Source: Chitinibacter fontanus (GTDB taxonomy: Bacteria > Pseudomonadota > Gammaproteobacteria > Burkholderiales > Chitinibacteraceae). Taken from it: DNA of 64,000 nt. The DNA lies in assembly GCF_013423785.1 (NCBI RefSeq), contig NZ_CP058952.1:1515665-1579664 (forward strand), given 5' to 3'. The notes below the pieces were generated by a model, which was not told the DNA's origin, did not search any database, and was given only the letters and a program-made list of their open reading frames with translations. Numbering within the stretch: the first letter of the stretch is position 1; each line of letters begins with the position of its first letter. This document shows, one piece after another, positions 42,337 through 45,837 of the stretch. The translations under genes and the position numbers were made by a program.

Positions 42337-42542
42337 AGTTTTTCCTTATTCACAGTATTGCCTCAGTATCGGCCAGATAGCAGCACCAGCCGATGATGAT
42401 GCTCACATCTGGTGCGGCAATATTCCCACGCCCGGCGATTGCTAGGGTCTACAGTTTACTGCGCGCTGCAACATTTTTTGGGGGAGAAAGTATTTTTTAG
42501 GCTAAAACGAATAACCTCTTTCAATCATTGGCAGGCTTGGCC

Positions 42543-43847
42543 ATGTATAACCATGAAGTGACCAGCGATGTCATCTCAACCTTTCGCATCCGGCTATTCG
42601 ATATGATCTGCGCGCTTTCTACGGCGCTGGACTTGCTAGACCCCGCCTTGGGATCGCACCAGAAACGCACCTGCCTAATTGCCGCACAAATTGCCCGTAA
42701 TATGGCGCTGGATGACAATGATTACCAAGATGTTTTTGGCGCTGCGATTTTTCACGACATCGGTGCAATTGGTCTGCATGACCGCCTCGCCATGCTGGAT
42801 TTTGAAGAGCACGATGCCCATACACATGCTCGACTTGGCGGCTTATTACTATCACGCTTTCCCGGCTTTAACCGCTACGCACCGCTCGTGCATTGCCACC
42901 ATGTGCAATGGAATTATGGTGAGGGAGCGCAGCATGAAGGCAAAGCCGTACCGCTGATGAGCCATCTAATTTATCTGGCCGATCGCATCGAAGTATTGGC
43001 ACAAGGCCAAGATAATATCCTTGGTGCAGCTCCCGAAATCGTCGAACAAATATGCGATGCAAGTGGGCGCAAATTTCACCCGTTGTTTGTTGAGGCATTT
43101 AGCAAAACAGCACAACAGGAAAGCTTCTGGCTCGACATATTTTCTAAGAATCTAGACCGGATTCTGATGGATTTGGCACCTTTCGATAACATTGATCTGG
43201 ACTTGGAGCAAATGCTGCAATTTGCCCAGTTTTTCGCCCTCGTCATCGACTCTCGCAGCCATTTCACCGCTACCCATTCTGCTGGGGTGGCCATTACCGC
43301 CGAAACCATTGCCCGCAACTTAGGAATGAGCGCGCAAGAATGCACCAAAATGCGGATGGCCGGCTATCTACATGATCTGGGTAAACTCGCAGTACCCAAC
43401 GAGTACATCGAACGACAAGGCATCTTGGAAGAAAAAGAAATGGCGCGGGTGCGCTCACACAGCTACCTGACGCTGGACATTCTAAGCATGATCAAAGGCT
43501 TGGAAGATGTCACCGAATGGGCCGCATGTCATCATGAACGGCTCGATGGCAGTGGCTATCCTTATCACCGTACTAGCACTGAATTATCGTTGGGCGCGCG
43601 CATTATGGCCGTAGCCGATGTTTATACCGCCCTAACCGAAGATCGCCCTTACCGCTCGGGCATGCGCCCTTCCGAAGTACTCGCCATGCTCGATGAACTC
43701 AAAGATCAGGGAAAACTAGATCCCATTGTGGTCAATACCCTGAAAGAAAATCTTCCCTCGATCGAAGCGGCTCGCATCCGCGCCCAGAGTCAGGAAGGAC
43801 TGGATTTAATCGAATTTTGGCAGCTTGCCACCAAGTCGCTGCAATAA
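42543..43847 (+). CDS. HD-GYP signalling protein with two HD domains
   Basis: A 434-residue cytoplasmic protein with two HD domains. The first (about 25-180) has H39, the HDIG pair at 71-74 and an HCHH cluster. The second (about 235-400) is a canonical HD-GYP domain, with HDLGK (about 277-281), HHERLDGSGYP (about 329-340) and a late DVYTALTEDRPYR. HD-GYP enzymes hydrolyse cyclic di-GMP. No receiver or membrane part is present. The ATG at 42543 is preferred over an upstream TTG, with AGG about 9 bases before it. A PAS protein and a chemoreceptor follow directly, suggesting a common operon linking c-di-GMP and taxis. Confidence 0.9.
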   Translation: MYNHEVTSDVISTFRIRLFDMICALSTALDLLDPALGSHQKRTCLIAAQIARNMALDDNDYQDVFGAAIFHDIGAIGLHDRLAMLDFEEHDAHTHARLGGLLLSRFPGFNRYAPLVHCHHVQWNYGEGAQHEGKAVPLMSHLIYLADRIEVLAQGQDNILGAAPEIVEQICDASGRKFHPLFVEAFSKTAQQESFWLDIFSKNLDRILMDLAPFDNIDLDLEQMLQFAQFFALVIDSRSHFTATHSAGVAITAETIARNLGMSAQECTKMRMAGYLHDLGKLAVPNEYIERQGILEEKEMARVRSHSYLTLDILSMIKGLEDVTEWAACHHERLDGSGYPYHRTSTELSLGARIMAVADVYTALTEDRPYRSGMRPSEVLAMLDELKDQGKLDPIVVNTLKENLPSIEAARIRAQSQEGLDLIEFWQLATKSLQ

Positions 43848-43858
43848 GGCAATCTACG

Positions 43859-44377
43859 ATGAAAAGCCGCATCATCCCGACGCAGCACGAGAAAATCATG
43901 CGCGAAAATGATTTTATCGTCTCCAAAACCGACACTAAAGGTCGGATCACCTATGGCAACCGGATTTTCATTGAATACTCCGGCTATTCCGAACATGAGT
44001 TACTCGGCGCCCAGCACAATATTATTCGCCACCCCGATATGCCACGCGGGGTATTCAAATACCTATGGGACACCATCGCCAGCGGGCAGGAAGTCTTTGC
44101 CTATGTCAAAAATATGGCCAAAGACGGTAGCTATTACTGGGTGTTTGCCAATGTAACACCCGATTACGATAGCAACGGCAACATCATTGGGTATCTTTCT
44201 GTACGCCGCTGCCCTAAACGTTCAGCAGTTGATACCTGTACGGGTTTATACCAGCAAATGCTCGCAGCAGAGCAGCAAGCCGGCCCACGCGATGCATGTG
44301 CTGCTTCGCTTGCGTTGCTAGGCTCGGTACTGCAACAACATGGAGTGAGTTATGAAGAGCTTGTCCTTTCACTCTAG
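43859..44377 (+). CDS. Stand-alone Aer-like PAS sensor protein
   Basis: A 172-residue protein. Residues about 10-125 are a PAS domain of the Aer type, with [47 protein letters not shown] and [14 protein letters not shown]; such domains often bind FAD or haem and sense oxygen or redox state. A helical tail ([17 protein letters not shown]...) follows, with no membrane segment. It begins 11 bases after the HD-GYP gene and overlaps the next chemoreceptor by 26 bases. In classical Aer the PAS and signalling parts are one chain; here they are separate genes, and the strong overlap suggests the products work together. Confidence 0.87.
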
Positions 44378-45809
44378 GGTAACGCTAGTCGTTATTTTCT
44401 TGTGCAGCCTGCTGGGGATTCATTTTTTAGTGTCTTGGTACCTACAAGGCTTTCAAAGCTGGTCTTTAATACTGCTGCTGGCCGGCATCGTCACCGGGCA
44501 TCTGTATGTTTTACGCTCGCGCACCGATATGGCACTGCTGCAGCAAATCGAGCGGATTGCCGGTGATGTTGCAGCAGGCAAAGTCACCGAGCGAATTGTA
44601 CATATCCCCAGCACCGATGAATTTGGCCGGATCAGCTGGGCCATTAATGACATGCTCGATCAGCTGGAAGCCTGTTTTCGTGAGCAGCAAACCACGTTAC
44701 AAATGGCCAGCCAAGGTAAATTTTTTCGCAAAGCTCAGCCAGTCGGCGTACACGGCGAGTTTCGTGCCGCACTGGATCGCACCAATCAATCACTTCTCGT
44801 GCTGGAAAAAAATGCGTTTAAAGAGCGGCGTAATGGTTTGCTATCGCAACTCGGTGAGCTCAATACCCGCAATTTATTAGCAAATCTGGAAATGACCCAA
44901 GGCGATATGGTCGGTATTGCCAGCGCCACCGATGATCTGGCGGGCTTATCGAGTCAAAATGTGGCCGATGCCGAAGATAGTCGCCAGCAAGTTGTGCAAC
45001 TGATTAATACCTTAATGGCGATGATTCAGCATATTGATGAAACCAGCGCCGCGGTAGATGGCTTTGGCAACCTTGCCGCCAAAGTGAGCTCGTCAGTGAA
45101 TATGATTGCCGATCTGTCCGACCAGACCAATTTGCTGGCACTCAACGCCGCTATTGAGGCGGCGAGGGCGGGTGAACAGGGGCGTGGCTTTGCAGTGGTC
45201 GCCGATGAAGTACGCAAATTGGCCGAACGCAGCAAAACCGCATCCAGTGAGATCGGGTCGGTAATGGGTGAATTACAGGAAAAAGCCACCAGCATCAGTC
45301 AGGTGAGCAGCACTATGCGGCAAATGGCCCACGAGTCTGGCGAGCATGTCACAGGGATTGAGCAGCGCTTCCAAAGCAGTGAACAGCGCGCCAAACAAGC
45401 CTTACAACGCATTGCTTACGTACAAGATGTCTGCCACACCTCACAAGCTAAAGTGGAAATTTTGTACTTCAAACAGAACGGCTATATCAACATCATGGGC
45501 GGGGACTTGGCTCGCAAAGCTCAGCAAACCTTGCAATTGCAGGCAAATGACAGCGTTTTTGGCCACTGGTATGCCAGTGTTAATAGCCTACGCGATTACA
45601 ACCAGTACAGTGCCTTCCGTGAATTGGCGGCACCCCAGCAATTACTCTACCAAGCCATGCATCAGGTTGTTGAGCTGGCCGATAGCAATTGGCCAGACGA
45701 TCCACAGTTACAACATCAAATTCAGGCGCAGTTTCAAAGTGTTGAAAATGCCAGTCAAAAATTATTTTTATCCCTGGATCAATTGGTACTGCAAAAGCAT
45801 CAGCACTAA
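44352..45809 (+). CDS. Chemoreceptor with degenerate CZB-like domain
   Basis: A 485-residue methyl-accepting chemotaxis protein. Two membrane segments lie close together near the N-terminus (about 9-27 and 37-55) with almost no periplasmic loop, followed by a HAMP-like region and a signalling hairpin ([38 protein letters not shown]). The C-terminal region (about 365-445) resembles a CZB chemoreceptor zinc-binding domain ([41 protein letters not shown]), but the usual Cys and His ligands appear replaced. GGAGTGAG precedes the ATG, inside the PAS gene. With so little periplasmic sequence its signal probably comes from inside the cell, perhaps from the adjacent PAS protein. Confidence 0.9.
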
Positions 45810-45837
45810 AAAAAGCGCTCTGATTGAGCGCTTTTTT
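45808..45837. terminator. Strong intrinsic terminator between convergent chemoreceptor genes
   Basis: A run of A, GCGCTC, loop TGATT, GAGCGC and a T6 run form a symmetric hairpin beginning at the stop of the upstream chemoreceptor. It can end transcription from both directions, though the minus-strand gene at 45902 is 65 bases away. Confidence 0.85.

Follow-up and report, generated by a model that had tools for sequence, protein, structure and literature searches.

What role is left to a CZB domain once all four of its zinc ligands have been replaced? The question is raised by a chemoreceptor gene of Chitinibacter fontanus at positions 44352..45809, on the forward strand, of a 64,000-nucleotide stretch of DNA, the whole of which is referred to here as the window. 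The open reading frame, Pfam matches and hydropathy of the encoded 485-residue protein point to a CetA-like receptor, consisting of a membrane hairpin, a HAMP domain, an MCP signalling domain and a C-terminal pseudo-CZB domain that spans residues 358-485 (45423..45806, forward strand). The MCPsignal match scores 101.5 bits (6e-29), the HAMP match falls slightly below the Pfam cut-off of 25 (23.8 bits, 5.9e-5), and the N-terminus contains two hydrophobic stretches separated by a short turn, with hydrophobic 19-residue segments starting at residues 3-14 and at residue 36, the last of these barely above threshold. No PAS domain is listed by Pfam within the 485 residues.

A sequence-only reading of this DNA had placed a CZB-like domain with lost zinc ligands at 45440-45690, a stretch that falls within the C-terminal domain, and alignment to related receptors bears out that description in detail. 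The ligand positions, which are His, Cys, His and His in each of 44 ligand-bearing relatives, read Ile370 (45459..45461), Ser401 (45552..45554), Gln429 (45636..45638) and Tyr433 (45648..45650) on the forward strand of the window, exactly the replacements named earlier: the first His by Ile, the Cys by Ser, and the two His of PHxxxH by Gln and Tyr. The framework around these positions is kept, as had also been claimed, and the domain aligns to CZB domains along its length. The FGxW of the CZB frame (45558..45569, forward strand) is retained, with Gly404 and Trp406 each present in 44 of 44 relatives, and the CX(L/F)GXW(Y/L) motif reads S-V-F-G-H-W-Y, in which the frame is kept and the Cys is gone. 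Eight frame residues conserved in Chitinibacter (K367, Q375, Y378, G404, W406, W447, E465 and S468) occupy positions that are near-invariant in the ligand-bearing relatives (42 to 44 of 44). The loss of the ligands is real, complete and conserved, the combination I/S/Q/Y occurring in five of five Chitinibacter orthologues in place of the 3His/1Cys core. A better alignment with intact Cys and His ligands was sought and ruled out: neither PHxxxH nor Cx[LF]GxW was found by motif scan in any of the five domains, so a displaced Cys/His motif is rejected, and the only Cys or His residues common to all five are C361, H362 and H483. With all four ligands replaced, the known 3His/1Cys site cannot form, which excludes zinc binding in the known way, as the earlier reading had proposed, and the Chitinibacter domain is predicted to be blind to zinc.

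By profile comparison the window domain is nevertheless a CZB by descent, its homology to ligand-bearing domains lying far beyond chance. The Pfam CZB model alone scores it at 13.2-16.3 bits, depending on the flank supplied, against a cut-off of 29.4; in the full receptor the match covers residues 373-439 at 13.2 bits, and of the five Chitinibacter domains three are listed below the cut-off and two (L102 and L103) are absent. Profile alignment, the check suggested in the sequence-only reading, scores the window domain at 86.6 bits when the profile is built from the 44 ligand-bearing relatives, and at 95.2 bits when the four ligand columns are masked. The seven ligand-less domains considered below score 77.7-91.5 bits against the same profile (87.9-99.7 masked), and the best of 1400 shuffled copies of those seven domains reaches 10.4 bits (11.5 masked). 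The low Pfam score taken alone might point to misalignment, but five genomes agree on the replacements and 86.6 bits stands against a best shuffle of 10.4; misalignment and sequencing error are both rejected, and either is barely conceivable. Two AlphaFold2 models, each built from only two sequences (those of the window and L004) and with mean pLDDT of 54 and 57, are mostly helical. A Foldseek search with the second of these low-confidence models yielded nothing with an E value as low as 0.001, and DgcZ (4h54) came 24th at E 1.7; searches of PDB sequences with the window domain and with the relatives' profile reached no CZB entries. The ligand-bearing CZB of the same genome reached DgcZ (3t9o) weakly in a PDB sequence search (E 0.42), in an alignment that pairs the Cys and the last two His ligands. 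A partial CZB, L215, the sole yield of the viral_contigs scan, was left out, as its alignment to the window looked mis-registered.

The state of the zinc site was compared among 54 aligned receptors, of which three have no CZB. In the 51 that do, the ligands read H/C/H/H in 44, I/S/Q/Y in the five from Chitinibacter, and L/N/F/Y or L/N/H/Y in two of a separate lineage. These receptors are relatives of the window receptor and not a random sample of CZB proteins: they include 36 of 60 non-Chitinibacter rows, mostly the stronger ones, from a search with the N-terminal part of the receptor, and 13 of 28 non-own rows, both ligand-less ones included, from a class-wide search. That class-wide search (369 genomes, with a Chitinibacter profile) yielded 30 pieces at 28 loci, 22 of them H/C/H/H, six partial and two ligand-less; the latter (L189 and L192) are the same genes as L202 and L203. 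Two further sets are biased toward intact sites because they were ranked by Pfam score. One, phylum-wide (398 genomes), gave 32 pieces in the best 30 Pfam matches, with 28 H/C/H/H, three partial and one with Tyr at the first His; the other, from the 43 genomes of the window's family, gave 26 pieces, with 14 H/C/H/H, nine partial, two with Glu and one with Gln at the first His. In these cases the first zinc His alone is changed, to Glu in L049 and L055, to Gln in L038, and to Tyr in one of the two CZB-like matches of L170.

The genus itself has kept a second, ligand-bearing CZB receptor above the Pfam cut-off in six of six Chitinibacter genomes, so zinc-type sensing is retained elsewhere in the genus. 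In the window genome this protein (L001) has no hydrophobic segment by the same hydropathy test and is therefore probably soluble. Orthologues of the window receptor were found in five of the six genomes; the search of the sixth (G403) returned no orthologue, only the ligand-bearing CZB receptor at 29% identity. The five frames are open and the orthologous domains are 61-81% identical to that of the window. For the domain, dN/dS is 0.043 in the pair L104-L101; in L102-L103 it is 0.124, at a dS that has already reached 1.72. dS for the CZB is saturated in eight of the ten Chitinibacter pairs. The ratio of CZB dN to that of the N-terminal part, calculated by hand, is about 1.4-2.3 in the Chitinibacter pairs and about 0.5-2.0 in ligand-bearing pairs; the Chitinibacter CZB thus changes faster than the N-terminal part, and some relaxation is therefore possible. 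Judged from these comparisons, the domain is conserved and not simply decaying.

Conservation extends to residues peculiar to the genus. In the predicted first helix, His362, Gln365, Glu369 and Tyr372 (45435..45467, forward strand) are invariant in all five Chitinibacter domains and occur in none of the 44 ligand-bearing relatives, which have Phe at position 362 (39 of 44), Leu at 365 (44 of 44), Asp at 369 (44 of 44), and Ile, Val or Met at 372 (44 of 44). With their 3-4-3 spacing the four residues would share one face of a helix, the helical state of this stretch being assumed from known CZB structures. Such an arrangement suggests a remodelling of the domain, which is more than simple retention. 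The available text of a survey of CZB domains describes the first helix as contributing a large part of the homodimer interface (PMC8262984).

The immediate genetic setting of the receptor gene points to a source of signal other than zinc. The sequence-only reading made no reference to this PAS partner gene, to the CetA/CetB-type arrangement or to the second loss of ligands described below. Overlapping it by 26 nucleotides is a gene on the same strand (43859..44377) for a CetB-like, stand-alone Aer-type PAS protein of 172 residues. Its best solved relative is the PAS domain of Escherichia coli Aer (8dik, 94.8 bits, E 5.2e-26), and it keeps H53, R57, W70, N85 and R115, which the accessible portion of a study of Aer gives as flavin contacts (PMC9668731). 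In the alignment to 8dik it also has Gly, Val and Val at the three Aer-GVV positions, the residues naturally present there in CetB according to the part of PMC2628428 that is available. A stand-alone Aer-type PAS protein with flavin-contact residues is what defines a CetB, and adjacency to such a gene is equally expected of a CetA. The five flavin residues are kept in all five Chitinibacter PAS proteins and, with these five included, in 47 of the 54 best PAS hits. The seven exceptions are L202, L203 and L210, each with four of these residues replaced; L204, with one replaced; L121 and L206, which are incomplete; and L106, which is not a true partner.

The pairing of the two genes is widespread. 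At 39 of 41 loci (the window and L101-L140) a same-strand PAS frame lies upstream within about 110 nucleotides of the receptor and mostly overlaps it, distances being taken between stop-to-stop frames, with start codons checked for the window only; the exceptions are L106, with no PAS frame nearby, and L108, with one 2.3 kb away. All 13 further loci from the class-level search have a nearby same-strand PAS frame, upstream in 12 and downstream in L212; the gap is 230 nucleotides in L205. In L206, whose receptor has its CZB ligands intact, the upstream PAS frame appears to be split in two. A third gene, encoding an HD-GYP-type protein with two HD stretches (42528..43847, forward strand), is separated from the start of the PAS gene by 11 nucleotides. 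All five Chitinibacter loci have an HD-GYP match upstream on the same strand, and none of the 36 others does; some of these 36 are cut off by a contig edge, and in L119 and L133 there are HD matches on the other strand. This arrangement suggests that energy taxis is connected with c-di-GMP in the genus.

The ligands have been lost more than once. In a tree of the 51 CZB-bearing receptors, built with the CZB columns removed, the five Chitinibacter sequences and the pair L202/L203 form separate groups (each 100/100), and both sit among ligand-bearing relatives, requiring two changes. L105 and L106, which branch closest to Chitinibacter, keep their ligands intact. A single origin is rejected: joining the two lineages, a grouping defined by ligand state before the tree was built, costs 54.6 log-likelihood units (AU p 8.6e-6). 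The separation of the second lineage from Chitinibacter is more secure than its exact position, because the long branches of L207 and L210, about which the tree program warns, lie beside the second lineage. This lineage comprises two draft genomes (G888 and G1096) of one genus, 70% identical in the domain, and its receptors have open frames, one of the two retaining His at the second ligand His. Common to both lineages is the replacement of the first His by an aliphatic residue (Ile or Leu) and of the last His by Tyr. In the PAS partners of L202 and L203, too, four of the five flavin residues are replaced, and the pair seems to be of CetB/CetA type with both cofactors lost. L210 is the mirror case of Chitinibacter, with CZB ligands intact and four of five flavin positions changed in the partner PAS (I/A/W/T/Q).

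Taken together, these observations somewhat favor a reading in which the receptor is the CetA-like half of a split Aer system for flavin-driven energy taxis, and the zinc-blind pseudo-CZB persists in it in a structural or coupling role. Because the four ligands have been replaced and have stayed replaced across related species, the receptor now probably listens only to its putative flavin-binding partner protein, and of the two options named in the sequence-only reading, a new ligand or a structural role, a structural or coupling role is favored because the partner PAS keeps its flavin residues. Three relatives with a PAS partner but no CZB (L115, L116 and L140) show that this type of receptor can do without the zinc domain. 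The PAS protein would most likely bind FAD, read the redox state of the cell and act on the HAMP domain of the receptor, a PAS-HAMP contact modeled on work with Aer and CetAB. In most relatives the CZB domain would add a zinc or redox input, such that PAS and CZB both feed into a single signalling hairpin. Of these two inputs, Chitinibacter would have switched off only that of zinc, with the domain retained as a folded part without a zinc site. Held in one state, the pseudo-CZB could then terminate the dimer as a structural or coupling element that does not depend on zinc, leaving the flavin arm alone to set output.

The rebuilt first helix keeps another option alive, namely that the domain has been re-purposed as a sensor, with the helix-1 face (plus Cys361) or the emptied zinc pocket binding a new small molecule, a different metal or a partner protein. 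Four residues fixed in five of five Chitinibacter domains and seen in none of 44 ligand-bearing relatives, on what would be one face of a helix that contributes much of the dimer interface in known CZBs (PMC8262984, in the text available), speak for it; C361, H362 and H483, however, form no recognised motif, and re-purposing is unlikely. A wider proposal adds to it that the new helix-1 face reports a different cue or partner beside the flavin input, and that CetA/CetB-CZB pairs are modular two-input redox receptors in which either input can be lost separately in evolution. This proposal can be put forward only tentatively; if true, zinc would have been lost in Chitinibacter, the flavin residues in L210, and both in the lineage of L202 and L203.

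Two other accounts take the opposite starting points, that the domain does nothing or that it still binds zinc. Under neutral decay its function would be lost and the domain itself on its way out. The three CetA-like receptors that keep a PAS partner do lack a CZB altogether, and in Chitinibacter the CZB is changing somewhat more quickly than the remainder of the protein; yet an identical replacement of four residues in five species whose domains are as little as 61% and at most 81% identical to that of the window, the low dN/dS of the two measurable pairs, the invariant frame residues and the open frames make decay improbable. Survival of a zinc site in altered form, through Ser, Gln and Tyr, through the neighboring Glu369 or His362, or through sites shared across the dimer, would draw on the invariance of Glu369 and His362 in the five domains and on their closeness, in the sequence, to the first of the lost ligands. 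Against it, none of the four first-shell ligands is left, an Ile side chain cannot bind metal, and no PHxxxH or Cx[LF]GxW occurs elsewhere in the domain, so that such a site is very improbable. As a separate observation on the receptors without CZB, L115 ends in EWEEF and L116 in EWAEF, which resemble CheR-docking pentapeptides.

A structural or coupling role can be set beside what is known of the systems from which the two halves of this receptor derive their likeness. The CZB chemoreceptors TlpD of Helicobacter and McpA of Salmonella carry the domain in the same C-terminal position after the MCP domain, and the whole window domain can be aligned with those of TlpD, McpA and DgcZ (Pfam PF13682), with FGxW and other frame residues in common; unlike theirs, it has all four zinc ligands replaced and falls below the Pfam cut-off. 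TlpD-type receptors are soluble and lack membrane segments, whereas the window receptor has a hydrophobic N-terminus, is apparently membrane-bound, and has a PAS partner gene. The available part of a study of TlpD reports that the coiled coil and kinase tip are shifted when zinc coordination is disturbed (PMC12871147), so an intact CZB would be mechanically tied to output.

The gene pair also resembles CetA and CetB. In Campylobacter jejuni, and in CetBA2 of Magnetospirillum gryphiswaldense, a small Aer-type PAS gene likewise lies beside or overlaps the receptor gene, and cetB2 and cetA2 of Magnetospirillum overlap too, according to the accessible text of PMC12442639. CetB carries the PAS domain and CetA consists of two transmembrane helices, a HAMP and a signalling domain, in the description available in PMC2628428. 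The window receptor shares with CetA the membrane hairpin, the HAMP (slightly below cut-off), the MCP domain and the lack of a PAS domain of its own. Campylobacter CetA is given as a transmembrane region, a HAMP and a signalling domain in the same partial description (PMC2628428), whereas the window receptor adds the C-terminal CZB-derived domain. E. coli Aer has a like PAS domain, whose flavin residues are kept in the window PAS protein, but Aer is a single protein; in the window the PAS domain and the transducer are two proteins, and a CZB-derived domain stands at the C-terminal end of the transducer.

CZB domains and CetA/CetB pairs are both already known. Among the literature matches listed, in a search whose scope took in few subscription papers, there was no description of a ligand-less CZB or of a CetA/CetB pair with a CZB. 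As far as its available text describes, the 2021 survey weighed a 3His/1Cys core, the CX(L/F)GXW(Y/L) motif, coverage of and alignment to confirmed CZB sequences, a four-helix bundle and zinc binding, used the core as its criterion for automated identification, and reviewed failing sequences manually (PMC8262984). Ligand-less relatives are easy to miss because of this criterion, and the Pfam cut-off misses those of Chitinibacter too; the window domain lacks the core and the complete motif, although it aligns to CZB sequences along its length. A conserved, twice-evolved ligand-less CZB shows that the scaffold can persist without its zinc site, and comparison with zinc-bearing relatives offers a natural experiment that separates zinc input from flavin input in one receptor type. 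The contrast is directly testable because CZBs have been proposed, in the part available of a preprint (PMC13370339), to read redox through free zinc.

A few minor observations concern the surroundings of these genes. Within the window's family, two genomes of a single genus (loci L056 and L057, on G177:C5 and G139:C16) each have three CZB matches above the Pfam cut-off within about 2.6 kb, in small open frames that form a cluster of short CZB proteins. A plasmid search returned six records, all partial matches below 60% identity, and a record from Chitinibacter sp. GC72 is 81% identical to the window domain. Inspection by eye also shows, at 45815-45837 of the window and directly past the receptor stop codon, a GCGCTC/GAGCGC hairpin with a run of six T after it, which is absent from the scan's listing for that strand.
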